From: a virus
Direction: 5' to 3' (one strand)
DNA length: 56,183 bases
IMG/VR virus record: IMGVR_UViG_3300047562_000883
Span: 1 to 56,183 of that record
Shown: in pieces, positions 28,968-54,705 of the stretch
How positions within the stretch are numbered: position 1 is the first letter of the stretch
How the letters are laid out: each line of letters begins with the position of its first letter
Program-made: the position numbers and the translations under genes
Notes under the pieces: generated by a model
Database searches by the model: none
The model's input: only the letters and a program-made list of their open reading frames with translations
Told to the model about the DNA's origin: nothing

Positions 28968-29356
28968 TGACTAAACGAAATCCTTTTGATTTTGTAAAGT
29001 CAGTCTCTTATGACAAAAAAGATATCATGGTTGATGATATCGAAGAGAAATCATATCAACCATTTTTAACTAACAAAGCATTATCTTATCACCAAGATTC
29101 AATCTTTTTCACAAATGAAATGAATGTTAGGCATAGTCTGGATAATCGTCTTCAATACTCTTTTTATCTAAATACCCTTAGAAAAAGGCAAAGATTTTCT
29201 ACATGGAATAAACCATATATTAGTAAAAAACTTGATGCCATACGAGAGTATTATCAGATAAGCACCAGAGAAGCTAAAGATTATGAAAATTTATTATCTG
29301 ATAAACAGTATCGTGAATTGAAAAAGAGAATGAATACTGGTGGAAGTAATGAATGA
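28967..29356 (+). CDS. 62: Clamp loader small subunit gp62
   Basis: 129 residues (T4: 187; marine relatives are shorter). The N-terminus KRNPFDFVKSVSYDKKDIMV, the block YQPFLTNKALSYHQDSIFFT and RQRFSTWNKP fit the marine T4-like gp62, which joins four gp44 subunits to form the clamp loader. It overlaps regA by eight bases, as in the T4 order 45-44-62-regA. Confidence 0.9.
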   Translation: MTKRNPFDFVKSVSYDKKDIMVDDIEEKSYQPFLTNKALSYHQDSIFFTNEMNVRHSLDNRLQYSFYLNTLRKRQRFSTWNKPYISKKLDAIREYYQISTREAKDYENLLSDKQYRELKKRMNTGGSNE

Positions 29357-29759
29357 AATAGAATCACAAGTTGCAGATTTAGTAGAAATCACCTTTGAAA
29401 AGGAAGATGATTTTTTAAAGATCAGAGAAACCCTATCCAGAATAGGCGTCGCTTCAAGAAAAGAACAAGAATTATATCAATCATGTCACATATTGCACAA
29501 GCGTGGAAGATACTACATTGTGCATTTCAAAGAACTCTTTAGGTTGGATGGTAAACCCACCAACATAGATGAAAACGATATTGCAAGAAGAAATACGATA
29601 GTATCTCTTTTAGAGCAATGGAGTTTAGTTAAAGTGGTAGATTCTTCTAAGATAGTGGAACCAAAAGCACCATTATCTCAGATTAAAATTATACCACATA
29701 AAGAGAAGAATCAATGGAATTTAATTACTAAATACTCCATTGGTACCAATAAATCATAA
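29349..29759 (+). CDS. regA: Translational repressor RegA
   Basis: 136 residues from the ATG at 29349. The protein aligns well with T4 RegA: EITFEKEDDFLKIRETLSRI, ELYQSCHILHKRGRYYIVHF and KELFRLDG. RegA binds the start regions of early phage mRNAs and blocks their translation, including its own and gene 44 in T4. Here the structured leader before gene 44 is a plausible target. About 12 residues precede the T4-like start, so a slightly later start is possible. Confidence 0.95.
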   Translation: MNEIESQVADLVEITFEKEDDFLKIRETLSRIGVASRKEQELYQSCHILHKRGRYYIVHFKELFRLDGKPTNIDENDIARRNTIVSLLEQWSLVKVVDSSKIVEPKAPLSQIKIIPHKEKNQWNLITKYSIGTNKS

Positions 29760-30288: not shown

Positions 30289-30317
30289 AAAAAGGGGAAC
30301 TCTGTTCCCCTTTTTTT
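30289..30317 (+). terminator. Intrinsic terminator upstream of the curli locus
   Basis: AAAGGGGAAC / GTTCCCCTTT, a 10-bp stem with a TCT loop, followed by seven T residues. The last T is the first base of a TATAAATA late promoter, so this hairpin insulates the curli locus from upstream transcription while the promoter restarts it. Confidence 0.93.
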
Positions 30318-30324
30318 ATAAATA
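30317..30324 (+). promoter_or_regulatory. Late promoter of the curli/cyclase operon
   Basis: Exact TATAAATA fused to the end of a terminator T-run. The first ATG (30332) lies seven bases later with no Shine-Dalgarno, so the first message would be near-leaderless. Most genes from 30332 to 37168 are linked by overlaps and could be read from this promoter. Confidence 0.78.
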
Positions 30325-30331
30325 GAAGAGT

Positions 30332-30628
30332 ATGGAATTTGTATTTGAATTAATAACTGAATTGGGATTTCCTGTTGCTATAGGTATAACAATGGGAGTT
30401 TTTATATTTGTTATTATTAAACAAATCCTACAAGGTATAGTTGATAGCATCGAGACACTTACCATGTTCTGTAAGTCACTAGAGAATCGTGCAAGAACCA
30501 TGTCAAACGAAATGATAAAGATTGACATGTTGGTATCGTCTGCATTGGAACTAAGACCTGATATTGAGAGAGTTGCTCGTGCAGAGAACTTTATCGAAGA
30601 TGGTAAACTAGATGTGAGAAGAGATTGA
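30332..30628 (+). CDS. Membrane protein of a paralogous pair, first gene of the curli operon
   Basis: 98 residues. N-terminal membrane segment (LGFPVAIGITMGVFIFVIIK) then an amphipathic helical region. The motif L…GFPVAIGI parallels YGFPIVMAVGLGYFI in the next gene, so the two are probably paralogues that arose by duplication and may act together in the membrane. Similar small proteins in other phages are sometimes called holin-like. Ends in a TGATG overlap. Confidence 0.6.
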   Translation: MEFVFELITELGFPVAIGITMGVFIFVIIKQILQGIVDSIETLTMFCKSLENRARTMSNEMIKIDMLVSSALELRPDIERVARAENFIEDGKLDVRRD

Positions 30629-30912
30629 TGGAAGAATTGAATATTATTGATCTAGTTTCACAATATGGATTTCCAATTGTTATGGCAGTTGGTCTAGGAT
30701 ACTTTATATACTATGTGTGGTGGTTCATTGGTGAACACATAGAGCCTCAAATTGAAAAGATGCACTTTGCATTGATAAGAGTTATAGATCAAACACGAAT
30801 GTTAGACCAAGACCTTATCCGTTTACAACAGAAAGTTGATGTTGTATTAGAATACAGAGAGAACGAGAAGAAGAGGGCTACAAAAACCAATGAAGAAAAT
30901 AATACTTCTTAG
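30628..30912 (+). CDS. Membrane protein of a paralogous pair, second
   Basis: 95 residues from the ATG at 30628. One membrane segment (YGFPIVMAVGLGYFIYYVWW) followed by a long charged helix (IRVIDQTRMLDQDLIRLQQK), the pattern of several small phage membrane proteins and of some holins. Paralogue of the preceding product. It overlaps csgF by 23 bases, so it is translationally linked to the curli export genes. Confidence 0.6.
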   Translation: MEELNIIDLVSQYGFPIVMAVGLGYFIYYVWWFIGEHIEPQIEKMHFALIRVIDQTRMLDQDLIRLQQKVDVVLEYRENEKKRATKTNEENNTS

Positions 30913-31372
30913 TCTACTAACACTACCAGTTTTAGCAGACGAGATAAAATTTGGATTTAAGAATCCATCGTTTAGTGGTGTCGGTACAGGCGCACATTAT
31001 CTTACAATCGAAAACCAAGAACACTCTCGGAAGAAAGCAATCGAAGATGCTCTAGAGTCTGCAAGAAAGGCTGCTGAAAGAGAAGCCGAGAATACAACCC
31101 TTTCAAAATTTATACGAAACTTAGAGAGTAGAATCTACGCTCAGTTTGCAAAACAACTTGTAGAGTCAATGTTTGCAAATGATAATCCTGCTGGGTTCGG
31201 TTCGTTTGTTTTAGAAGGTAACACCATTACATGGGAAGTTATAACAGATGAAAGTGGTACAGAATTTATTCGTCTGATTGTTGTTGCAGAAGATGGCACA
31301 ACAACAGAAGTTGTAATACCAGTTGGCACTGGTAACTTTGCACAAGATCCTGATACGCCAGGAGACGGATAA
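30890..31372 (+). CDS. csgF: Curli assembly factor CsgF-like protein
   Basis: 160 residues. A signal peptide (MKKIILLSLLTLPVLA, cleavage about residue 16) is followed by DEIKFGFKNPSFSG, which matches the mature N-terminus of bacterial CsgF (FQFRNPNFGG in E. coli), the segment that inserts into the CsgG pore constriction. The C-terminal part (TITWEVITDE…IRLIVVAEDGTTTEVVIPVG) matches the beta-hairpin domain that ends CsgF. In bacteria CsgF sits on the outer face of CsgG and couples export to fibre nucleation. It overlaps the preceding gene and abuts csgG with a one-base overlap, the gene order expected for a CsgF-CsgG pair. Confidence 0.88.
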   Translation: MKKIILLSLLTLPVLADEIKFGFKNPSFSGVGTGAHYLTIENQEHSRKKAIEDALESARKAAEREAENTTLSKFIRNLESRIYAQFAKQLVESMFANDNPAGFGSFVLEGNTITWEVITDESGTEFIRLIVVAEDGTTTEVVIPVGTGNFAQDPDTPGDG

Positions 31373-32283
31373 TGCTTAGAGTTCTACTTGCACTCACACT
31401 TATGATTAGTGGTTGTGCATCAATTCCAAGATACTCAGATGATCCTCAGGAGTGTAATCCTGCAACATGGGGTCCAGAGTATGACCATGATCTATGGAAT
31501 TATGCAAAGGCAGCAGGCAGAACTTTTGAAAGAGCAATACCATTCATATGTAAAGATGAAGCAGAAGTAGTAAGACTTCCATCTTATGTTCAACTTTTAG
31601 AACTGCCACCTGCAGAAGAACAACCTGTAGTTGCAGTTTATAATTTCTTAGATAAAACAGGTCAAAGAAAATCTGTAGATAACATTGCATCATTCTCAAC
31701 AGCAGTTACACAAGGTGGTGTTGAAATGGTAATTGATGCATTAAAAACGGCAGGTCAAGGTAAATGGTTTAGAGTTGTAGAAAGAAATGGTATTGATGCT
31801 CTGATTAGAGAAAGACAGATCATTCGTTCTGCAAGACAAGAATATGCAGCTGCTACGAATACAGAGGCAGAGGGCATACAACCACTTCTATTCGCAGGTA
31901 TTATAATAGAAGGTGGTATTATAGGTTATGACACCAACCTATTGACAGGAGGTCGAGGCGCAAGATATCTTGGCATAGGTGGTGCAAGACAGTATCGTAA
32001 AGATGCTGTTACAATCTCCATGAGAGCAATATCTGTTCTCACTGGAGAAGTTTTATTGAATGTACAAACTCGAAAGACTGTACTAAGTTATGGTTCTTCT
32101 GGAGATGTTTTCAGATTCATTGAAGAAGGAACAGAGTTAGTAGAGTATGAAAGTGGAGTTGGAAATAATGAGTCAGTGACTTACGCCACACGAACAGCGA
32201 TTGAAGCTGCCGTGTTGGAATTAATATACCAAGGACACCATAGGGGTTTTTGGAAAATAGAGGGGTATAACGAAAATGAATAA
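31372..32283 (+). CDS. csgG: Curli export pore CsgG-like lipoprotein
   Basis: 303 residues (E. coli: 277). A lipoprotein signal ends at LMISGC, and mature CsgG landmarks follow: VAVYNFLDKTGQ, FSTAVTQGG, KWFRVVERNGIDALIRERQI, IIIEGGIIGYDTN, GARYLGIGG, and VLTGEVLLNVQTRKTVLSY. Bacterial CsgG is a nonameric outer-membrane channel. In the constriction loop the E. coli Tyr and Asn (PYPASNF) are not conserved (SVDNIASF), while the Phe is. No CsgE is encoded nearby. The gene is flanked by csgF and a curlin-like gene, so a functional export unit is likely. Confidence 0.93.
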   Translation: MLRVLLALTLMISGCASIPRYSDDPQECNPATWGPEYDHDLWNYAKAAGRTFERAIPFICKDEAEVVRLPSYVQLLELPPAEEQPVVAVYNFLDKTGQRKSVDNIASFSTAVTQGGVEMVIDALKTAGQGKWFRVVERNGIDALIRERQIIRSARQEYAAATNTEAEGIQPLLFAGIIIEGGIIGYDTNLLTGGRGARYLGIGGARQYRKDAVTISMRAISVLTGEVLLNVQTRKTVLSYGSSGDVFRFIEEGTELVEYESGVGNNESVTYATRTAIEAAVLELIYQGHHRGFWKIEGYNENE

Positions 32284-33010
32284 ACTAATTAGTTTAATTA
32301 TATTATTGTCGACATCATTCGTTTTCGCACAGGCCACTGATGACAACGAAATTAAGATCACACAAACAGGTGATACTCTAAAACTATACATCGATCAAAT
32401 CGGTTTTGGAAACAAAGTCGGTGGGGACGATGCAAGTGGTGGAACTTTAAGTTCAATGTCTATAACTGGTGCAACACTTGATTTCAACTTAGATTTCACT
32501 GGAGACCAAAACATTTTATTTGGGCCAGTTGTTGCAGACAGTTCATATTACATAATCGATATAACAGGAGACTCTAACGAGATAGACTGGAACATCGGAT
32601 ATGTCGGTAGCGCTGATAGTTCAAACATAAACTTTGATATCACAGGTGATTCAAACACCTTTGATTTAGATCAAGGTTATGTTTACAGTGCAGAAAGACT
32701 TGATGCCGATCTCATATTAATTGGAAGTTCTAATGTTTTTGACATTGATTGGGAAGCAGATGACCTTATATGGACATTTGATGTAACAGGCAGTTCTAAT
32801 AATATCAATACACTACAGAATGACGGTGCAGGTAAAATTGATTTTACCTTAGACGGAGACAGTGCTGATGTAGATATCACTCAGATATCTGGTACTTGTT
32901 CACCATCTAATGCAGCTTGTTCATCACCTAATGGTGTTATTGTTTTAGATGTAACTAGTGATAATGCAATCATTCAACTTACACAAAAAGATTCGACTAC
33001 CGATTCTTAA
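32276..33010 (+). CDS. Secreted curlin-like repeat protein A
   Basis: 244 residues with a clear signal peptide (LISLIILLSTSFVFA, cleavage about residue 19). The mature start DDNEIKITQTGDTLKLYIDQ followed by IGFGNKV has the curlin spacing I-x-Q-x-G-…-x-Q-x-G-x-x-N. The rest contains about five repeats of a variant motif: FTGDQNILF, ITGDSNEIDW, ITGDSNTFDL, LIGSSNVFDI, VTGSSNNINT, suggesting a beta-solenoid rather than a canonical CsgA. It overlaps csgG by 8 bases, so it is the likely export substrate. Related to the product at 34265-35002 through the shared DDNEI start. Confidence 0.75.
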   Translation: MNKLISLIILLSTSFVFAQATDDNEIKITQTGDTLKLYIDQIGFGNKVGGDDASGGTLSSMSITGATLDFNLDFTGDQNILFGPVVADSSYYIIDITGDSNEIDWNIGYVGSADSSNINFDITGDSNTFDLDQGYVYSAERLDADLILIGSSNVFDIDWEADDLIWTFDVTGSSNNINTLQNDGAGKIDFTLDGDSADVDITQISGTCSPSNAACSSPNGVIVLDVTSDNAIIQLTQKDSTTDS

Positions 33011-34109
33011 TTTTTTATTACTCAGTGGGGTTGCTTTCGGCAACCCCATTGGTGATATCGTAGAGTCAACAGGTATTGGCTCAATCACTCGAAATTCAGA
33101 AGATGTGGGCAACAATGTTGGTTTAGAAATTCTACTGAAAGACGAAGCAAGAACTCAACAAGGTCGTATGAAGATTGTCTTCTTAGACAACGAAGTATTA
33201 GATATGACCGAAGGAACATACGCTTACATAGATGAGGCGTATTATGATCCAGACCCAAATTTATCCAAGATGTCAATACGAATGGTGCAAGGTACAGCAC
33301 GATTCACATCAGGTGCAGGTTTACGAATCAACAAAGCAAATGTAGATGTATCAACACCTACAGCACAAATCACAATCAAAGGTACAGACTTCACAACCTC
33401 TATTGATGAGATTGGAAGATCACTCATCATTCTTTTACCAGACGAAGATGGTAATGCATCTGGCATTATAGAAGTATCAAACAATATGGGAACAATTACA
33501 CTAGATGAAGCATATCAAGCAACAATGGTATCATCTTTAGATGCATCACCCACATCACCTGTGACGATTGCAAACATAACACCAGGTATGATTGACAATA
33601 TGTTCATTGTAAATCCACCTTCAGAGATCAAGCGGGCAATGGATGATCAGAGAGCAAACGAACAGAATGGTGATCAAGGCATACTTGATGTTGACTTCTT
33701 AGCATTCAACGAACTCGAACAAGATGCACTAAAAGATTCAGAAGAAGATTTAGAGTTCTCAGAGTTAGACATAGATATGTTAGGTGTAGACTTTCTTACT
33801 GATCTCTTAGATGTTGTAGAAGAACTTACAAAGACTACAGTAACACTTGCAGATGCACAAGCAGACACAGGTGGTGGAACAGTTACACTCAAAGGTGCCG
33901 CTATAGGTTTCAACAGTGATTCACAATACAACATCTTTGTACAAGACGGAGACTTATACTTCTATCGTAATGTGAATGGTGTTATTGAAATTATAGTTGC
34001 AAATGGTAATTCTGGTTATATAAACACGACAGTAGAAGGCTACTCAGGTAGAATAGACTTCGGTACAGGTGACCCAACAATAGAGATTATAATCAATCAA
34101 TCTAACTAA
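32964..34109 (+). CDS. Exported FecR-domain protein
   Basis: 381 residues from the ATG at 32964, overlapping the curlin-like gene by 47 bases; a GTG six bases upstream is possible, and there is no strong ribosome site. Signal peptide RLPILNFLLLSGVAFG, then a FecR-like domain: RNSEDVGNNVGL, GRMKIVFLDNEVLDMTEGTY, MVQGTARFTSGAG, VSTPTAQITIKGTDF. This fold occurs in periplasmic regulators of iron uptake and in proteins exported with outer-membrane structures. The C-terminal half is acidic. Position between two curlin-like genes suggests a periplasmic or surface role in fibre assembly, sensing or anchoring. Confidence 0.75.
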   Translation: MQSFNLHKKIRLPILNFLLLSGVAFGNPIGDIVESTGIGSITRNSEDVGNNVGLEILLKDEARTQQGRMKIVFLDNEVLDMTEGTYAYIDEAYYDPDPNLSKMSIRMVQGTARFTSGAGLRINKANVDVSTPTAQITIKGTDFTTSIDEIGRSLIILLPDEDGNASGIIEVSNNMGTITLDEAYQATMVSSLDASPTSPVTIANITPGMIDNMFIVNPPSEIKRAMDDQRANEQNGDQGILDVDFLAFNELEQDALKDSEEDLEFSELDIDMLGVDFLTDLLDVVEELTKTTVTLADAQADTGGGTVTLKGAAIGFNSDSQYNIFVQDGDLYFYRNVNGVIEIIVANGNSGYINTTVEGYSGRIDFGTGDPTIEIIINQSN

Positions 34110-34130: not shown

Positions 34131-34277
34131 ATGGAATTACTATCAAAACTTGTTGATTGGCACAAGGGTAAAACACACCACTTTCAATCAGCACTTAGAT
34201 TAGATGATTATCACATGATGTGGATATCTTTTATGAAAGGAGTTATTTTAGTATTATTACTTCAATGGATATTTTAG
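34131..34277 (+). CDS. Small tail-anchored membrane protein
   Basis: 48 residues with the best ribosome site in the region (AGGAGGT). N-terminal soluble part (MELLSKLVDWHKGKTHHFQS) and a C-terminal membrane segment (MKGVILVLLLQWIF). It overlaps the second curlin-like gene by 13 bases. Unknown function; its coupling suggests that it may help translation or membrane targeting of that product. Confidence 0.55.
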   Translation: MELLSKLVDWHKGKTHHFQSALRLDDYHMMWISFMKGVILVLLLQWIF

Positions 34278-35002
34278 AAAAAACTAAAAAATCAAACGAC
34301 AAGCCACTCTTATGGATAGGGTGGCTTGTTTTACTATCTTATTGTTCGTTTGCTTTTGCAGACGACAATGAAATCACCATTCTACAAGAGGGTGATAACT
34401 TTTCTTTATCTGTTGTTCAGACAGGTTATAGCAATATCATTAAACAATGGTCATCAACAGAAGGAATAGATGGTGCAGACAATACTATTTCTATTGCACA
34501 AAATAAAAACTATGGTAGTTCTACCGATAAAAACATCATAGAAATTCGCAGAGTATGGGGAACAGGTAACGACCTAAAACTTGCTCAAGGATATATCATC
34601 AATGCAGACGGAAGTTTTTCTGTTGATAATGATGAGTATGGTGATACCTTTGTTCATGTAAATGTCACTGGTGATTACAACGATATAGAAATGACTCAAC
34701 GAACAAATAGTACTTCTTCAGGTCATTGGTATGGGTTACATCTCGAAGGTGATTACAATGATATAACTACCAATCAAAGAGAAGGTGGTGCTCATACATT
34801 AGATTTAGATATTTTCAATGATTATAATATTGTTGATGTTGTTCAAAAAAATAGTGGAAGTCATTATGCATGGATAAGACTTGACGGAACATACGGAACT
34901 GATATAACACTTGAGCAAAATTCTACAACTGGTCAAACATATTCAATTCAACAAAACTGTTACACAGTCGGTGGTTGTTCAGTCTCAGTAACACAAAACT
35001 AA
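34265..35002 (+). CDS. Secreted curlin-like repeat protein B
   Basis: 245 residues from the ATG at 34265. An unusually long N-terminus precedes the signal peptide (WIGWLVLLSYCSFAFA). The mature start DDNEITILQEGDNFSLSVVQ continued by TGYSNIIKQ has near-perfect curlin repeats (I-x-Q-x-G-x-N and V-x-Q-x-G-x-x-N). Further repeats read ISIAQNKN, DLKLAQGYI, VTGDYNDIEMTQ, LEGDYNDITTNQ, NDYNIVDVVQ, ITLEQN, and SIQQN, with a C-terminal cysteine pair. Paralogue of the product at 32276-33010. This is the better candidate for an amyloid-type fibre subunit or nucleator exported through CsgG. Confidence 0.8.
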   Translation: MDILEKTKKSNDKPLLWIGWLVLLSYCSFAFADDNEITILQEGDNFSLSVVQTGYSNIIKQWSSTEGIDGADNTISIAQNKNYGSSTDKNIIEIRRVWGTGNDLKLAQGYIINADGSFSVDNDEYGDTFVHVNVTGDYNDIEMTQRTNSTSSGHWYGLHLEGDYNDITTNQREGGAHTLDLDIFNDYNIVDVVQKNSGSHYAWIRLDGTYGTDITLEQNSTTGQTYSIQQNCYTVGGCSVSVTQN

Positions 35003-36840
35003 TGTACTCTTGGAAAACAGTATTAGTAACTATTGGTCTTCTAGTCGGTCTCAAAATATGGTCACCCTATATTGTTGAGAACATTCAATGGTCATGGTTT
35101 GACTTTCTTCATCAACAAAAAGAAAAGGTATTAGTAGATAATATTGTTCTTGTAGACATAGATGAAAAGTCATTACAGAAATACGGACAATACCCATGGC
35201 CGAGAAACATCTACAGAGACATACTCTTACAAACAGATCCTACAAACACACATGTATTCAATATGGTGTTCAGTGAACCAGATAGATTTGGTGGCGACTT
35301 AGCATTTGCAGAAGGACTTATCAATCGTCTAACGATCATAGGTTCTGCACCCACAACACAACTTGATACAGGTTCGGCACCTTATGTACCCACATCTGTA
35401 TTCGGTGGTGGTTCGATTGAAGATTCTATTTGGAAGTTTCCAGGCATTTCATCACCCATACCTATACTCAGAGACAACACATATGGTGTAGGCGTAACAG
35501 TTTCTACACCTGCACAAAAGGGTACTGCAAACTTTGATGGTACAATTCGTTCTGCACCACTACTTGTGATGGCAAATGATCAAGTGTATCCGTCAATTGC
35601 ACTAGAGACATTGAGAGCATACTTTGATCAACCTAGTTATCAGACAAGAGTTGTACCTGAATTAGGCATAGAATGGATACGAATGGGTAGACAACCACCC
35701 ATCAACACAACACCAACAAGTGATATAATGATCTCTTATTGGAATGAATTTGACTCTATTTCCGCCTCTGAACTTGCAGACTCAGATATCAATAATAAGA
35801 TTCTGATATGGGGTCTAACGGCAGAGGGTCTGAATAATCCAGTTTCAACCCCAATGGGTGTAATGTATCCTCACGAAGTGCAAGCCTCAATTCTCCAAAC
35901 CGTTTTGCAAGAAGTTCAAATACAACAATCCTACTATCTTGAATTACTTGAAGTTGTTCTTCTTGTGATAGTTCTTTTAGGTATACTTCTTGTGGTCTAC
36001 AAAACTCCCACAACTCTATCGGCGATAGGGAGTCTAGGTGTTGTTGCAGGTCAGGTGGGATTGGGTTACTATATTTGGAATGAGCATCTAATTCTTTTCG
36101 ATACTTTTTATTCATCAATTAGTTCCTTGATTGTTTTTGGTCATGCTTCTTTCAACAAATACTATGTAACATATCAACTCAAAGAACAAATCAAGAAGCA
36201 GTTTCAAAAATATTTATCTCCTGACATGGTTGAAGAACTGCAGAAAGATCCAAGTAAACTCAGACTTGGTGGTGATCGTAAAGAAATGACATTCATGTTT
36301 ATGGACATTTGTGGGTTTACACCAGTCTCAGAATATTATAAGAACAATAATGATCCTGAGGGACTTGTAAATCTTATCAATAAGTACCTTGACACAATGA
36401 CCAAAATCGTACTAAAATACAATGGTACAATCGATAAATATATGGGTGATTGCATTATGGCATTCTGGAATGCACCACTCGATTGTGAAGACCATGCCGA
36501 CAAAGCAGTAGAGGCTGCAATAGAGATATCAAAGAAAGCTGATGAACTTATTGAAGAGCTTGAGAAAGAAGGCCTGCCTAGGATTGATATTGGTATCGGC
36601 ATCAATACAGGCGAATGTATCGTTGGAAACATGGGTTCAGAACTTCGATTCGACTATTCAGTCATTGGAGATGCAGTCAACCTTGCCTCTCGACTCGAAG
36701 GCCAGACTCGCAATTACAATGGGGTTAGAGTGCTGTTATCGGAGTTCACTTATCGAAAGTGTAAAGATAGAGAACTCAAACGAGTTGATTCTATCCAAGT
36801 TAAAGGAAAGTCAGAGTCAGTTACCGTCTATACAATTTAA
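35002..36840 (+). CDS. CHASE2-class III adenylate cyclase, membrane-bound
   Basis: 612 residues. An N-terminal membrane segment (about 7-22) precedes an extracytoplasmic CHASE2 domain (NIVLVDIDEKSLQKYGQYPW…, about 45-300). Three membrane segments (about 312-335, 337-358, 362-383) follow, then a class III cyclase domain. Catalytic residues are intact: metal-binding Asp435 (FMDICGFT) and Asp483, Lys479 and Asp557 at the purine-recognition positions (DKYMGDC; VIGDAVN), and Asn560/Arg564 (NLASRLEG). The Lys/Asp pair predicts ATP as substrate and cAMP as product. It overlaps the curlin-like gene by one base, so it belongs to the same operon. A membrane-signalling enzyme in a lytic phage is unusual. 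Confidence 0.93.
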   Translation: MYSWKTVLVTIGLLVGLKIWSPYIVENIQWSWFDFLHQQKEKVLVDNIVLVDIDEKSLQKYGQYPWPRNIYRDILLQTDPTNTHVFNMVFSEPDRFGGDLAFAEGLINRLTIIGSAPTTQLDTGSAPYVPTSVFGGGSIEDSIWKFPGISSPIPILRDNTYGVGVTVSTPAQKGTANFDGTIRSAPLLVMANDQVYPSIALETLRAYFDQPSYQTRVVPELGIEWIRMGRQPPINTTPTSDIMISYWNEFDSISASELADSDINNKILIWGLTAEGLNNPVSTPMGVMYPHEVQASILQTVLQEVQIQQSYYLELLEVVLLVIVLLGILLVVYKTPTTLSAIGSLGVVAGQVGLGYYIWNEHLILFDTFYSSISSLIVFGHASFNKYYVTYQLKEQIKKQFQKYLSPDMVEELQKDPSKLRLGGDRKEMTFMFMDICGFTPVSEYYKNNNDPEGLVNLINKYLDTMTKIVLKYNGTIDKYMGDCIMAFWNAPLDCEDHADKAVEAAIEISKKADELIEELEKEGLPRIDIGIGINTGECIVGNMGSELRFDYSVIGDAVNLASRLEGQTRNYNGVRVLLSEFTYRKCKDRELKRVDSIQVKGKSESVTVYTI

Positions 36841-37168
36841 AGAACCGTCTCTACTTTCACCACAAGAACTTTTTTGGACACTACAAGTCTTAGACATTTG
36901 GACTACCTATGAGGGTATGAAATACGAATGTGTCTATGAAACTAATCCTCTTCTACCTAGAAGACCTGATTTGAATGATCTAGTTATTCACAAAACAAAA
37001 TGGTTAGCATGGGTGCCAGTAATATTACAGAATAACACAACATTGACAGATGAAGAGAAACAAGATGTATTCAGACCAGGCAATCGTATGATGATTGCAG
37101 TGGTGTTTAATAATCTTTTAGTTTTAGAAAGAGTAAAAAAGAGAGAAAATTGTAAAAAAATAGGTTGA
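36719..37168 (+). CDS. DUF5658-like membrane protein (start uncertain)
   Basis: About 149 residues if the ATG at 36719 is used; that start overlaps the cyclase gene by 122 bases in another frame, and a later start is possible. After the cyclase stop the protein reads LFWTLQVLDIWTTYEGMKYE, then ETNPLLPRRPDLNDLVIHKT, which fits DUF5658-type small membrane proteins (a D-x-x-TTY motif and E-x-NPL). Two or three hydrophobic segments follow. Role unknown; last gene of the curli/cyclase array. Confidence 0.55.
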   Translation: MGLECCYRSSLIESVKIENSNELILSKLKESQSQLPSIQFKEPSLLSPQELFWTLQVLDIWTTYEGMKYECVYETNPLLPRRPDLNDLVIHKTKWLAWVPVILQNNTTLTDEEKQDVFRPGNRMMIAVVFNNLLVLERVKKRENCKKIG

Positions 37169-37194
37169 AAAAACCAGATTAGTCATTATATAAT
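37165..37194 (+). promoter_or_regulatory. Sigma70-like promoter before hsp20
   Basis: TTGAAA (37165-37170), 18-base spacer and consensus TATAAT (37189-37194). The late octamer TATAAATA begins on the last base of the -10, so the gene could be read both early and late. Confidence 0.68.
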
Positions 37195-37201
37195 ATAAAT
37201 A
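37194..37201 (+). promoter_or_regulatory. T4-type late promoter overlapping the hsp20 -10 box
   Basis: Exact TATAAATA, sharing one base with an upstream TATAAT. Transcripts would begin just before the hairpin at 37207-37229. Confidence 0.68.
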
Positions 37202-37206
37202 TAAGA

Positions 37207-37229
37207 GTAGATGCTCGGGTGAGGTCTAC
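37207..37229 (+). other. Hairpin in the hsp20 mRNA leader
   Basis: GTAGA / TCTAC outer stem with an inner CTC / GAG stem and GGGT loop, about 30 bases before the hsp20 ATG. It sits at the 5' end of transcripts from both candidate promoters. It may stabilise the message or act as a thermosensor; there is no T-run, so it is not a terminator. Confidence 0.5.
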
Positions 37230-37260
37230 GAAATTAACTTGCTTAATAAAGGAGAAAACT

Positions 37261-37677
37261 ATGTCAATTTATGACGATATCTTTGGGCGAACATTTCCGT
37301 TCGCAATTGGGTTCGACAGAACCTTTTCACTACTAGAAAGAGCTGCAGAAGCACCTTCTATCAACTATCCACCTTACAACATTATCAAGGAAGATGACGA
37401 ACATTTTCGCATTGAACTTGCTGTTGCTGGGTTTGATAGATCAGAACTCAAAGTCTCAAAAGAGAAAAATGTTCTAACTATCGAAGGTAAAAAAGAAAGT
37501 GGTGAAGATGAGTCGTATCTTCATAAGGGACTAGCCTCTAGGTCTTTCAAAAGATCATTCACACTTGCTGATGATGTACAAGTCGTTGGCGGTGATCTAA
37601 AGAATGGTATTTTGATTATCAACTTAGAGAGAGTAGTACCAGAAGAAGATAAACCACAACTTATCGAAATCAAGTAA
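37261..37677 (+). CDS. Small heat-shock protein Hsp20
   Basis: 138 residues from the ATG at 37261, which has AAGGAG upstream. The alpha-crystallin domain is clear: NIIKEDDEHFRIELAVAGFD, LKVSKEKNVLTIEGKK, and RSFKRSFTLADDVQV followed by the C-terminal GILIINLERVVPEE. It is a holdase chaperone; Hsp20 genes are a common core-like feature of T4-like cyanophages and marine relatives. It has its own leader and dual promoters. Confidence 0.95.
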   Translation: MSIYDDIFGRTFPFAIGFDRTFSLLERAAEAPSINYPPYNIIKEDDEHFRIELAVAGFDRSELKVSKEKNVLTIEGKKESGEDESYLHKGLASRSFKRSFTLADDVQVVGGDLKNGILIINLERVVPEEDKPQLIEIK

Positions 37678-37684
37678 AACCCTA

Positions 37685-37720
37685 TTGACTGGTAGCATCA
37701 CTTGTGATATAGTGGTGCTA
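37685..37720 (+). promoter_or_regulatory. Peroxiredoxin promoter with overlapping palindrome
   Basis: TTGACT (37685-37690), 17-base spacer, TATAGT (37708-37713). A 9-base inverted repeat, TAGCATCAC (37693-37701) and GTGGTGCTA (37712-37720), with one mismatch, flanks and covers the -10 box. This is the geometry of an operator, so a repressor or redox regulator may control it. The leader contains an AGGAG ribosome site. Confidence 0.65.
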
Positions 37721-37742
37721 CTATAATATTATAGGAGTTATT

Positions 37743-38240
37743 ATGTTAAATGTAGGTGATACAATACCAAATGTTGTTATGCCAGTTAGGGCAGACGGCG
37801 CTTGGAAACATTTGAATACCCATGAACAGTTTGCAGGAAAAAGAGTGATCATCTTTGCACTGCCAGGCGCATTTACACCAACTTGTTCATCATTTCAACT
37901 TCCTGGTTTTGAAACAAATTTTTCAAAGTTTCAGGAGAAAGGAATAGATGAGATTTATTGCTTGTCTGTAAATGATTCTTTTGTTATGAACTCATGGTTT
38001 GAAGCACAAGGTGTTCAAAATGTTAGACCATTGCCTGATGGCAACGGCGAATTTACCGAACTTATGGGAGCATCTGTAAAGAAAGCAAATTTAGGTTTTG
38101 GTTTTAGATCATGGAGATATGCAATGGTTGTCAATGACAATGTAATTGAATCAGTCTTTGCAGAAGAAGGATTTGGTGATAACATTGAAACTGATCCTTA
38201 TGAAGTATCTTCACCAGAAAATGTCTTAGCAAATTTATGA
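37743..38240 (+). CDS. Peroxiredoxin (Prx5/AhpE-like)
   Basis: 165 residues. The peroxidatic motif PGAFTPTCS (Cys48) is exactly that of the Prx5 subfamily, and DGNGEFTELMGASV and GFGFRSWRYAMVVNDN match its conserved core. A second Cys is present in IYCLSV. The enzyme reduces hydrogen peroxide and organic peroxides. A phage-encoded copy could protect the infected cell from oxidative damage. It has its own sigma70-like promoter with a palindrome. Confidence 0.93.
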   Translation: MLNVGDTIPNVVMPVRADGAWKHLNTHEQFAGKRVIIFALPGAFTPTCSSFQLPGFETNFSKFQEKGIDEIYCLSVNDSFVMNSWFEAQGVQNVRPLPDGNGEFTELMGASVKKANLGFGFRSWRYAMVVNDNVIESVFAEEGFGDNIETDPYEVSSPENVLANL

Positions 38241-39355
38241 TCTTAGAGCATAAAGATGCTGAATATGCAGCCAGAGTCTTTATAGATTACTATAAGGACT
38301 TTGGTCGCATTGATGATTATCTCAGAAAAGTCAAACTAGAACGAATTGCAGAAATGCCTGTGTCTTTGCCTGGCATGGGACCAGAAGATGATATGTTTTC
38401 TGATTTCACCATGCACCCACAAGACATGCAGTTTGAATGTAGAATCATGGACAATGATCTATGGAATAATTACATTGAGATAGTTACTTCACATGCACTA
38501 GAGAAATCAATACCTGGTAAATCTTTGAAATGGGTAGTGTATGAGAAGAACACAAACAAGATAGTTGGTTTCATTCGCTTTGGTTCTCCAACTATAAACT
38601 CAAAACCAAGAAATGATTTCTTAGGCAAACCACTAGATACACAAGACATGACTGTTATGAAACGATTCAATGATTCAGCAATCATGGGTTTCACAATAGT
38701 TCCCACACAACCTTTTGGTTTTAATTATCTTGGTGGTAAACTTTTGGCAGGCATTTGTTGTTCGCATCTTGCCAGAAGAACTCTTAACGAAAAATATGGT
38801 GGCCCTTTTTGCATGTTTGAAACTACATCTTTGTATGGTAGTTCCAAGTCTTCATCAATGTATGATGGCATGAAACCTTTTCTCCGTTTTACAGGACTTA
38901 CAGTATCAGACTTTGTACCATCAATTAATGATCAAAAGTATAGAGACTTAAAGGCATGGTTTGAAGATAGAAACGGAGAACCTTTAATTGATCCACAAGC
39001 ATCAAGTCTCAAACTAAAAACACAAACAAAGATGATATCTATCATAAAGAAATCTTTACAAGGTGAATTACTAACTCAATTCAATAAAGTTTTTGAAGAT
39101 GCCAAACAACTTACAGAACAGAAAAGACAATTCTTATCTACTTATGGTTATAAAAATGTAAAAGAATATCTTACATTTGAAACTGATACATTAGAGAAAT
39201 CAGAGAACTATGATAGATATGAGTTCGATTCTATCGTAGAATGGTGGAAGAAACTTGCATCTAAGAGATATGATAAACTTAATAGTGAAAATAAATTGAG
39301 AACAGAACTAGAAGTTTGGAATCTAAATCCTGATAAGATAGATATTATAAGATGA
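38237..39355 (+). CDS. DUF4338 (DruA)-like protein, copy 1
   Basis: 372 residues. The central region (WVVYEKNTNKIVGFIRFGSP, DFLGKPLDTQ, GFTIVPTQPFGFNYLGGKLL, KYGGPFCMFETTSLYGSSKS) has the layout of DUF4338 proteins, the DruA family of Druantia defence loci. It is clearly paralogous to the product at 47313-48599 (shared IVPTQPFGFNY/IVPTQPLGFNY, GGKL and TTSLYG). Enzymatic activity of this family is not established. No other Druantia component is present, so the phage proteins probably do something else, or interfere with that system. Overlaps the peroxiredoxin gene by four bases. Confidence 0.6.
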   Translation: MILEHKDAEYAARVFIDYYKDFGRIDDYLRKVKLERIAEMPVSLPGMGPEDDMFSDFTMHPQDMQFECRIMDNDLWNNYIEIVTSHALEKSIPGKSLKWVVYEKNTNKIVGFIRFGSPTINSKPRNDFLGKPLDTQDMTVMKRFNDSAIMGFTIVPTQPFGFNYLGGKLLAGICCSHLARRTLNEKYGGPFCMFETTSLYGSSKSSSMYDGMKPFLRFTGLTVSDFVPSINDQKYRDLKAWFEDRNGEPLIDPQASSLKLKTQTKMISIIKKSLQGELLTQFNKVFEDAKQLTEQKRQFLSTYGYKNVKEYLTFETDTLEKSENYDRYEFDSIVEWWKKLASKRYDKLNSENKLRTELEVWNLNPDKIDIIR

Positions 39356-39675
39356 TCGGTTACAGAGTTGTTGAAAATCCATACGAAGATGATGCCGCTA
39401 TAGAAATTACTGAGGGTGAGTTTAAGGGGTTAGTTTATCAATATGGTAAAGTACAATTCATAGATGGTAAACCAGAAATTAATTTTCAAAGAACGCTTCG
39501 AAGACTTCCTGATGATATTGAAAAGACAGAGGAAGAGGTTGAGAAACTACTAAATAATGGTGCATTAAATACTATTATGGGTGATATACTTGTAGAGTTA
39601 TTACAAAACCAAATCGAAAAGGAAAAAAATGAACAAAGAGATTCTAAAAGAACAAATAAAAAGACACGAGGGTGA
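39352..39675 (+). CDS. Conserved-looking phage protein, unknown function
   Basis: 107 residues overlapping the upstream gene by four bases and the endolysin by 47 bases. N-terminal beta-rich half (YRVVENPYEDDAAIEITEGE, GLVYQYGKVQFID) and a charged helical C-terminus. No family recognised. Its coupling to the lysozyme gene could matter for timing of lysis, but no membrane segment is present, so it is not a holin. Confidence 0.55.
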   Translation: MIGYRVVENPYEDDAAIEITEGEFKGLVYQYGKVQFIDGKPEINFQRTLRRLPDDIEKTEEEVEKLLNNGALNTIMGDILVELLQNQIEKEKNEQRDSKRTNKKTRG

Positions 39676-40084
39676 AGTCTTAGAAATATATAAAGACTCA
39701 CTTGGTTACTTAACCTTTGGCGTAGGCCATTTAGTCAGAGAAGATGATCCTGAGTTTGGTGAACCAGAGGGCACACCTGTTTCACAAGAGAGAGTAGATT
39801 CAGTTTATGATGTGGACTTTGATAAACATGTAGATGAAACTTATCATGTATGTGAAGAACATAACATTGATTTTATGGAGTTACCTGAGAACATTCAACA
39901 TGTATTAGTCAATATGTGTTTCAATCTAGGTGCAAACAGACTAGGTAAGTTTAGAAACATGTTGAAAGCATGTTCAGAATCTAACTGGAAAGAAATGGCT
40001 GCTCAGATGCAAGACAGTAAATGGTTCGGTCAAGTTGGTCGTAGATCAGTAGAACTACAACAGATGGTTTTAGATTGTGAGTAA
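39629..40084 (+). CDS. T4-type lysozyme (endolysin)
   Basis: 151 residues, glycoside hydrolase family 24. The catalytic triad of T4 lysozyme is intact: Glu14 (RHEGE), Asp23 (YKDSLG) and Thr29 (YLTFGVGH). The later LVNMCFNLGANRLGKF block is also typical. It has no signal peptide, so it needs a holin to reach the cell wall. Small membrane proteins at 29789, 30332, 30628, 43400 and 43554 are candidates for that function. Confidence 0.93.
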   Translation: MNKEILKEQIKRHEGEVLEIYKDSLGYLTFGVGHLVREDDPEFGEPEGTPVSQERVDSVYDVDFDKHVDETYHVCEEHNIDFMELPENIQHVLVNMCFNLGANRLGKFRNMLKACSESNWKEMAAQMQDSKWFGQVGRRSVELQQMVLDCE

Positions 40085-53536: not shown

Positions 53537-54346
53537 ATGGCACAGTGGAATAAGGACAGTCAGAGTTATCTGAATAATAACAAGACACTATTTGAGATAG
53601 TTGGTCTTGCAGATAAAGACGGAAACATCATCAATACATTTGGTGCTGCTTCTAATGTGCCTCTTTCCAATGGTGATATTGCAGGTTATTCTCATGTACA
53701 TAAGTTTGGTAAGAATCCTGATCTTGCAAATGGTACTGTAGAGACTATATGGGATGGATCAGTTATCTATCCATGGGCAACATGGGATGCAGGTGCATCA
53801 CTTGTATATCTAAAATCAACCACATCAGATACACAGAATGTATTTGTGCAAGGTCTAAACCAAGATTGGGAACTCACCTCAGAAACAGTAACACTTACAG
53901 GAACAACTGCTGTTGCAACTCAGAATACTTATAGAAGAGTATTCAGAATGTATAATCAAGGAACAACAAACTTTGCAGGAGATATTACTGCACACTACGG
54001 TTCAGGAACAGGAACAGTCGTTGCAAAAATGTTGAATGGATATAATCAGACACTTATGTGTGTCTATACAGTTCCAGCAGGTTATACTGCATTTCTAACA
54101 GATATGGAATTTTCATCACCAAAGAATGCAGAACTTAGATTAGAATTATTTGTTAGACCATTCAATAATGTGTTCAGAATTCAACATGCTGGTTCTGCAT
54201 ACGGTAGTCAATACGAGAAGAACATGGATGTACCTCTGAAAATAACAGAGAAGTCAGATATTGATCTAAGAGCATTGGCAGGAACAGGTGGTGTTGATGC
54301 ATCTGCATCATTCAATCTTATTTTAGTAGACAATACATACTTGTAA
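53537..54346 (+). CDS. Virion structural protein, conserved in marine phages
   Basis: 269 residues, beta-rich, no signal peptide. The segment HVHKFGKNPDLANGTVETIW followed by DGSVIYPWATWDAGASLVYL matches a structural protein found in many marine podo- and myoviruses (V-x-KFG-x-N-x-D-…-ETIW). The rest consists of short strands (TVTLTGTTAVATQNTYRRVF; LRLELFVRPFNNVFRIQHAG). Likely a tail- or head-surface component. It overlaps the next gene by one base. Confidence 0.7.
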   Translation: MAQWNKDSQSYLNNNKTLFEIVGLADKDGNIINTFGAASNVPLSNGDIAGYSHVHKFGKNPDLANGTVETIWDGSVIYPWATWDAGASLVYLKSTTSDTQNVFVQGLNQDWELTSETVTLTGTTAVATQNTYRRVFRMYNQGTTNFAGDITAHYGSGTGTVVAKMLNGYNQTLMCVYTVPAGYTAFLTDMEFSSPKNAELRLELFVRPFNNVFRIQHAGSAYGSQYEKNMDVPLKITEKSDIDLRALAGTGGVDASASFNLILVDNTYL

Positions 54347-54705
54347 TGAATTTATGTTTGTCATGTGGTTTATGTTGCAACGGATTTCTATTTGGAAGTT
54401 TTCCAGTAACAAAAGAAGAGTTTATACCTTTTATTGAACTAAACCCAAAGACAAAAGAAACAGAAAATGGGTTGAATGTTTCACAACCTTGTGTACAATG
54501 GATAAGAGATAAAGGTTGCAATATATATGATAAAAGACCTAGTGTTTGTAGAAAATATAAATGTGAAGTCCTACTGAAATATGAAAACAAAGACATTACA
54601 TACGAAGAGGCACTAGAAAAAATAAACCATGTAAAGAGAGAAAAACTCTTACACTTTAGAAATAAAGAAAAATTATCAAAACTATTAGAAGATTTTCTAG
54701 AATGA
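54346..54705 (+). CDS. YkgJ-like CxxCxxCC metal-binding protein
   Basis: 119 residues. The N-terminus MNLCLSCGLCCNG has the Cys cluster of YkgJ-type proteins, thought to bind zinc or an iron-sulfur centre; further Cys residues follow in QPCVQW, KGCNIYDKRPSVCRKYKC. The C-terminal 50 residues are charged helix. Function of the family is unclear; phage copies are often seen near virion and modification genes. Overlaps both neighbours. Confidence 0.8.
   Translation: MNLCLSCGLCCNGFLFGSFPVTKEEFIPFIELNPKTKETENGLNVSQPCVQWIRDKGCNIYDKRPSVCRKYKCEVLLKYENKDITYEEALEKINHVKREKLLHFRNKEKLSKLLEDFLE

Follow-up and report, generated by a model that had tools for sequence, protein, structure and literature searches.

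Locus and gene product

The stretch of DNA analysed here (hereafter the window; IMG/VR record IMGVR_UViG_3300047562_000883) comes from a virus, is 56,183 bases long and encodes structural and replication proteins that are T4-like. Our subject is a cyclase gene on its plus strand together with a second gene that begins inside it. The first is an intact open reading frame (ORF) of 612 amino acids at 35002-36840, the product of which is almost certainly a membrane CHASE2 - class III cyclase; the second, at 36542-37168, starts within the cyclase gene in the +1 frame, has 299 nt in common with it, and went unnoticed in the first-pass annotation of this DNA. The main new result of our analysis is that, judging from the sequence, this second ORF is a selected gene overprinted on the catalytic domain of the cyclase.

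The proposal of the first-pass annotation that a phage-borne class III cyclase is here attached to a CHASE2 sensor is borne out, both domains lying above their Pfam cut-offs (Table 1), and the ORF matches the phage family phrog_35576 over its full length (E 3.1e-179), with a TTG at 34975 as a possible alternative start. Relatives of the protein occur in the SAR11 phage HTVC008M (42% identity) and the OM43 phage Melnitz (34%), while the terminase of the window is nearest to that of phage C48C1 (56.6%), followed by those of cyanophages (46%). HTVC008M and Melnitz are already annotated with the cyclase, and the presence of CHASE2-cyclases in phages is thus known and not new. Simple hydropathy finds two clear membrane segments in the window cyclase (residues 7-25 and 315-333), and in that of HTVC008M an N-terminal segment plus three on the C-terminal side (308-326, 333-351 and 364-382); the CHASE2-receptor layout used for comparison has one N-terminal and three C-terminal passes, and we predict the topology of the window enzyme from its family.

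A second reading frame at the end of the cyclase gene

The overlap occupies the last 99 codons of the cyclase gene, including those for Ser553, Asn560 and Arg564, three of its six catalytic residues, and has the same strand and register in all carriers. In the window, the +1 frame of the last 96 cyclase codons contains no stops where 6.9 are expected, and none of 300 synonymous shuffles leaves it open. In the 58 loci where the downstream part has a homolog, +1 stops average 0.84 against 7.3 expected, and 49 loci (84%) are fully open, the other nine being eight with a standalone homolog upstream of the cyclase and one in which the cyclase frame itself is broken (L038). Loci that have no homolog (n = 172) average 7.54 stops against 8.76 expected, and frame +2 of the carriers shows no depletion (10.05 vs 9.98). 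Open length is correspondingly bimodal, reaching at least 95 codons in 54 of 221 loci and at most 46 in the rest, save for one locus with 91 and no continuation (L139). In a further locus (L041) the +1 frame is still open and the downstream part has been lost.

Synonymous sites were compared in 35 dereplicated carriers and in two control groups of 65 and 50 sequences. Identity at fourfold sites of the carriers is 0.632 in the overlap, compared to 0.445 in the catalytic part that precedes it and 0.448 in CHASE2, whereas in both control groups the overlap falls below the preceding part (0.439 vs 0.502 and 0.396 vs 0.480). At the protein level, +1 identity among carriers is 0.566, against 0.340 in shuffles. 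A frame open beyond chance and a constraint on synonymous sites in the overlap are therefore both found, and in carriers only, and we consider it very likely that the last 99 cyclase codons are dual-coding, with the second frame under selection.

It could be objected that the +1 ORF is not a gene, and is kept open by the codon choice of the cyclase or by recent common descent. Cyclase motifs alone would be expected to give hydrophobic +1 stretches, and the +1 identity of the control groups does slightly exceed that of their shuffles (0.436 vs 0.390 and 0.422 vs 0.367). However, neither cause readily accounts for stops that are depleted in one frame of the carriers alone, for fourfold sites that have diverged before the overlap yet are conserved within it in the same genes, or for a +1 frame that continues into a DUF5658 domain. 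Relatives tell against it too: in a comparison of 12 loci, the five relatives beside Hsp20 that have no downstream gene contain 3 to 12 frame +1 stops and four further non-carriers 6 or 7, while the window and L016 have none. Finally, Shine-Dalgarno-like 4-mers precede the start in 15 of 34 cases, compared to 45 of 559 background +1 ATGs. Taken together, these observations make the objection extremely improbable.

A separate question is whether the +1 part has its own start or is a frameshifted extension of the cyclase, which would sit well with the identical strand and register in all carriers. Against this, 34 of 35 carrier representatives have a suitably placed ATG, 92-105 codons ahead of the cyclase stop in the carriers listed (except L020, which has TTG); it is followed by a signal-peptide-like stretch and often comes right after an in-frame stop, and standalone homologs with a signal peptide of their own exist. 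We therefore regard a frameshift as very improbable, and an independent, overprinted gene as the preferred reading. Relatives of this gene are encoded by 318 stretches of viral contigs, and in the best 80 of them the cyclase frame is intact over the +1 gene in every case (80/80), a result that is partly so by construction, since the overlapped part supplied the patterns used for searching.

The overprinted protein

The product is predicted to be an envelope-bound protein. Conserved in carriers are a signal-peptide-like start and residues W31, D36, T38, L50, D51, G61 and CC64-65 (window numbering; alignment A8, 65 sequences), and a C-terminal DUF5658 domain is detected in 29 of 34 family members at E<=0.1 (best 1.7e-06); L016 just exceeds the family cut-off (25.4 vs 25.2 bits) and the window member falls below it (16.8 bits, E 0.012). 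In the structural model the C-terminal domain has a predicted local distance difference test score (pLDDT) of mostly 85-96, and confidence is moderate (about 78) for two helices encoded by the overprinted part. The best match to this fold in PDB is not significant (E 1.2), and the search of BFVD led only to an unnamed viral protein (E 7e-06).

Active site, domain exchange and standalone homologs

Six catalytic positions had been read in the first-pass annotation, of which the two metal-binding aspartates (D435, D483), the lysine (K479), the transition-state asparagine (N560) and the arginine (R564) are all present. The sixth, Asp557, is rejected for the base site: when the protein is aligned with cyclases of known structure, that column is occupied by Ser553, opposite the threonines of Pseudomonas aeruginosa CyaB (3r5g) and of OaPAC (5x4t), and D557 is instead the Asp of an IGD motif. 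Class IIIa adenylate cyclases are defined by a Lys/Asp base pair, and class IIIb by Thr or Ser at the base site and by cyclic AMP production that bicarbonate stimulates. The pair in the window enzyme is Lys/Ser (K479/Ser553) and not the Lys/Asp that had been used to argue for cyclic AMP (cAMP), and so we assign the enzyme, from these residues, as class IIIb-like. A base-site threonine for class IIIb is mentioned in PMC3383692. cAMP nevertheless remains our best guess for the product, and a rather likely one, with ATP as the predicted substrate on the grounds that a lysine and a hydroxyl residue are combined as in CyaB.

Two catalyst types are found among 234 phage and viral proteins, four of which are cut short. 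The first, with Ser/Thr at 553 and Asn at 560, accounts for 151 proteins, and the second, which we term Melnitz-type, has Asp at 553 and Ser at 560 (79/234; for example L003:8938-10989). The Melnitz-type catalyst retains the arginine and has no transition-state asparagine, and its activity is consequently in question. Two matches in Acinetobacter phages were rejected as phage cyclases; the one that was opened sits among isc/hsc/mfd genes and is therefore bacterial DNA.

Sensors and catalysts do not share a single history. In CHASE2, HTVC008M and Melnitz are 58% identical, and the window is 32% identical to the former and 31% to the latter; in the catalytic part, by contrast, the window and HTVC008M are 63% identical, and each is 37% identical to Melnitz. 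Thus, HTVC008M has its sensor in common with Melnitz and its catalyst in common with the window, while in a further locus (L051) a sensor resembling that of the window (62%) is joined to a catalyst of the Melnitz type (80%). In trees, Melnitz-type catalysts form one group and their sensors are scattered. These patterns indicate that catalytic cassettes have been swapped between sensors, which offers a natural series for studying the control of a cyclase by CHASE2.

In eight loci with a Melnitz-type catalyst (L168, L173, L176-L178 and L188-L190), the cyclase is closely preceded by a DUF5658 gene whose product has a signal-peptide-like start of its own. A profile of the overlapped part matches four of the five distinct standalone homologs; the match spans some 30 residues around G..CCY..e.i..V, and when all ORFs are searched, the homologs listed have E 0.001-0.005. 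The homolog of L176 gives no match, and a search of the standalone homologs for a trace of the cyclase frame found none. The overprinted gene may have been emancipated, or re-encoded, as a standalone gene when the other catalyst type replaced the stretch that held it, or the standalone gene may be the older of the two.

The curli cassette

From gene content and order, the cyclase is the last but one of nine genes (sm1, sm2, CsgF, CsgG, curlin, FecR, curlin 2, cyclase and the DUF5658 protein; Table 1), and that it belongs to a curli cassette is as good as certain. Curli cassettes (type VIII secretion system, T8SS) with FecR and an adenylate cyclase (AC) have been reported from pelagiphages, with transcripts and an argument for an alphaproteobacterial origin (Wittmers 2022, PMC9599517), and the window matches the phage T8SS order CsgF, CsgG, curlin, FecR, AC. 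Viral loci were taken as the best 80 matches from each of three scans (one scan alone holds at least 551 relatives), and among the 107 that extend 6.5 kb or more upstream of the cyclase, CsgF and CsgG each occur in 104, curlin and FecR each in 105, curlin 2 in 98, and sm1/sm2 in 74. An overlap of the cyclase with a curlin-like gene, suggested by the first-pass annotation, reduces to adjacency: the stop of cur2 ends at 35002, where the ATG of the cyclase begins, so that the two genes abut with a single shared base (TAATG).

Table 1 Features of the cyclase gene and its cassette in the window
Feature	Position	Strand	Evidence
Terminator-like hairpin and T-run ahead of cassette	30294..30309	+	sequence
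TATAAATA motif, 7 bp ahead of first cassette gene	30317..30324	+	motif match
Small membrane protein sm1	30332..30628	+	upstream of cyclase in 74/107 viral loci
Small membrane protein sm2	30625..30912	+	upstream of cyclase in 74/107 viral loci
CsgF	30890..31372	+	Pfam 9e-11
CsgG outer-membrane pore	31372..32283	+	Pfam 1.6e-51
Curlin-like subunit 1 (cur1)	32276..33010	+	Curlin_rpt 4.8e-05
FecR-domain protein, signal-peptide-like start, no anti-sigma part	32958..34109	+	Pfam FecR 1.9e-07; model vs PupR
Curlin-like terminal strand of FecR (TIEIIINQSN)	34077..34106	+	motif; alignment A5
Curlin-like subunit 2 (cur2)	34220..35002	+	position; phmmer to HTVC008M and Melnitz; no Pfam match
CHASE2 - class III cyclase	35002..36840	+	Pfam, PHROG, alignments to solved cyclases
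CHASE2 sensor, residues 14-330	35041..35991	+	Pfam E 1.2e-33, over cut-off
Cyclase catalytic domain (Guanylate_cyc), residues 427-609	36280..36828	+	Pfam E 1.4e-21, over cut-off
+1-frame gene, 208 aa: signal-peptide-like start, CC-motif segment, DUF5658 domain	36542..37168	+	sequence
Dual-coding stretch, 299 nt (cyclase residues 514-612; +1-frame residues 1-99)	36542..36840	+	sequence
Next TATAAATA, directly behind cassette, ahead of Hsp20	37194..37201	+	motif match

The motif ahead of the cassette, TATAAATA, is what we take to be the T4-type late promoter motif, and its position makes expression of the cassette late in infection plausible. All 10 matches in the window are on the plus strand, 5-59 bp ahead of an ORF, although the enrichment is modest (4.9 expected from shuffles, 5 of 100 of which reach 10). 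A late promoter motif and a phage lysozyme nearby (39629-40084) would also be compatible with the curli pore and cyclase serving lysis timing rather than fibres or signalling, a role for the pore raised in Buchholz 2022 (PMC9004378), and the +1 protein has weak matches to holin-named folds (E 1.7 and 2.8). These matches are not significant, however, and most cassettes contain the full set with two curlin-like genes, which makes a lysis role improbable.

The same genomic site is found without the cassette in phage C48C1, where regA-like and Hsp20 genes, matching 29340-29759 and 37219-37677 of the window, are separated by about 900 bp that hold two small hypothetical genes. Downstream of the cassette, Hsp20 and a redoxin occupy 37219-38240, and Hsp20 marks the insertion side in many carriers. 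The sm1/sm2 genes are, from their position, probably those named HK ("histidine kinases") by Wittmers 2022; we rejected a histidine kinase identity, as there is no kinase match in Pfam at E<=1. An Rfam search gave 0 matches. Elsewhere in the window, the ORF at 38237-39355 has a DruA (Druantia) domain (Pfam 1.1e-09) and a full-length match to phrog_19197 (5.3e-162), and so is a phage protein related to a defence component, while 54346-54705 encodes a small protein with a CxxCxxCC metal-chelating domain (Pfam 1.5e-08).

Several contigs binned into bacterial metagenome-assembled genomes (MAGs) were set aside as phage-like and not used as bacterial relatives. The phage cassette is present on L085, L087 and L089, and L090 has the sm1/sm2 genes; all four represent a contamination trap for trees of origin; L086, with only the cyclase in the fetched region, was judged phage-like from its 44% identity.

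FecR and a possible signalling relay

In the model of the cassette FecR, the FecR domain matches the signalling domain of PupR (6ovk; Z 16.1, root-mean-square deviation 2.3, 135 residues), so that this domain is recognised both by Pfam and by structure, and a separate C-terminal beta domain follows (pLDDT about 87). The cytoplasmic sigma-binding part is missing, a leading helix of ~21 residues being all that precedes the domain, and we therefore set aside an iron-dependent FecR regulator as not supported. The protein ends in a curlin-like strand ([IVL]x[IVL]xQ) in 161 of 170 phage FecR ORFs (70/77 dereplicated), compared to 4 of 1617 other phage ORFs of at least 150 amino acids and none of 25 FecR ORFs from bacteria, of which five extend beyond the fetched region. 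Across the 60 FecR sequences of alignment A5, Q380 does not vary, and at least 90% conserve I376 and I378.

A pairing of FecR with CHASE2 is also seen in bacteria: a FecR domain lies within 4 kb of CHASE2 in 23 of 40 hand-picked alphaproteobacterial loci, compared to 1 of 20 controls, each an 11.5-kb region of the genomes in question. We think it fairly probable that the two are functional partners, and hypothesise that FecR bridges curlin and CHASE2. In the relay that we propose, curlins would be secreted via CsgG/CsgF, as their families suggest, and periplasmic FecR, with its curlin-repeat-like C-terminal strand, would report curlin or envelope state to the CHASE2 sensor, which in turn would set cyclase output through the membrane helices. 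cAMP made from ATP would then act on a host cyclic nucleotide monophosphate (cNMP)-binding protein, in line with the rewiring of host cAMP suggested by the first-pass annotation; a host regulator is proposed because none of 11 large phage records (0/11, two of them complete genomes) encodes a cNMP-binding domain. The relay would operate late in infection, and the overlap would link the expression and inheritance of the DUF5658 protein to those of the cyclase.

Cassette, dual coding, relay and host effector together form what we consider the best explanation of the locus, one that is about equally likely to hold or to fail as a whole. Several observations weigh against it. As regards dual coding, the start of the +1 gene in the window (36542) has no clear Shine-Dalgarno sequence, model confidence is low in the signal-peptide part of its product (residues 19-46), and the gene has no match among isolate phages, so that no cultured carrier is known. 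As regards the relay, the absence of a cNMP-binding domain from the phage records noted above counts here as well, and comparison of the FecR tail with curlin by hhalign yields probabilities of just 2.7% and 10.5% (P 0.017 and 0.003). The Curlin_rpt profile is found in just 1 of 62 FecR tails (E 0.028), and the rows shown for the fold search of the FecR model contain no curlin or amyloid chain, the C-terminal domain being barely tested there. Of the 40 bacterial loci, only 7 have FecR on the CHASE2 strand and upstream of it, and strong CsgG loci in 240 alphaproteobacterial genomes do not adjoin the listed CHASE2 places.

The FecR tail could alternatively be an anchoring or secretion signal that FecR has in common with the curlins rather than a docking strand for sensing, which is partly compatible with the relay. 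Consistent with this, cur1 and cur2 often end alike (107/169 and 118/175), and a cell-surface anchoring domain (5ix9, Z 7.1) is among the matches to the FecR model; we regard this reading as a real possibility, though below an even chance. Much the same can be said of the idea that the cyclase responds to a general signal from the envelope (the view of the first-pass annotation) or from nutrients, or to iron via FecR (Wittmers), with the cassette merely co-inherited and no link to curli. CHASE2 is more variable than the catalyst between the window and HTVC008M, as if signals differ, and CHASE2 and FecR are paired in bacteria that have no curli; on the other hand, linkage to CsgF, CsgG and curlin is near-constant, FecR has no anti-sigma part of the kind an iron regulator needs, and its curlin-like tail is found in the phage cassette only. 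Sensing of curli state by the cyclase is itself doubtful, and equally tentative is the combined proposal that the overlap spans the enzyme active site, that the overprinted gene became standalone after a catalyst swap, and that the cyclase reads curli via the curlin-tailed FecR.

Significance and comparison with known systems

The cyclase has already been published as a component of ocean phages that are very common, and its gene also appears to carry a second selected protein over three of six catalytic residues, an overlap that makes heavy demands in a tailed phage. Where annotation permits a single gene per stretch, the +1 gene may be missed or its start clipped, and dual coding can be checked with existing metatranscriptomes and proteomes. 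For the fibre cassette, a curlin-tailed FecR acting through CHASE2 on a cyclase offers a concrete signalling hypothesis to replace that of an "iron regulator". The word CHASE2 does not occur in the text of PMC9599517, nor in the other papers examined on these phages, and cyclase residues, the FecR tail, domain swapping and the +1 gene are not mentioned in the parts of PMC9599517 that were read. Our literature search returned nothing on DUF5658, on overlapping genes in pelagiphages, or on Pelagibacter cAMP.

A comparable known overlap is that of the embedded lambda genes Rz/Rz1, in which translation of an envelope protein likewise begins within another phage gene, in its +1 frame; here, in contrast, the containing gene encodes an enzyme catalytic domain, the product is not a lipoprotein, and the overlap is partial. 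The cyclase resembles P. aeruginosa CyaB and other class IIIb enzymes in its lysine and base-site hydroxyl and belongs to the same family (E 9.8e-35), but differs in its CHASE2 membrane input and in having Ser rather than Thr. Similarly, the cassette FecR has the signalling-domain fold of the FecR/PupR cell-surface regulators, but no cytoplasmic anti-sigma part or membrane anchor, a signal-peptide-like start instead leading directly into the FecR domain. A Burkholderia biofilm operon (BiofilmReg) pairs a LysM-FecR protein with a CHASE2 histidine kinase, and thus, as in the phage cassette, a periplasmic FecR with a CHASE2 membrane sensor, in a biofilm-linked setting; its output is a kinase with a response regulator, and no curli genes are described in the passages of PMC5192318 that were read. 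Also close are the pelagiphage cassette of Wittmers, HTVC008M and Melnitz, which have the same order as the window (CsgF-CsgG-curlin-FecR-curlin-cyclase), yet HTVC008M and Melnitz, with 7 and 9 stops in the +1 frame, do not have the overlap.

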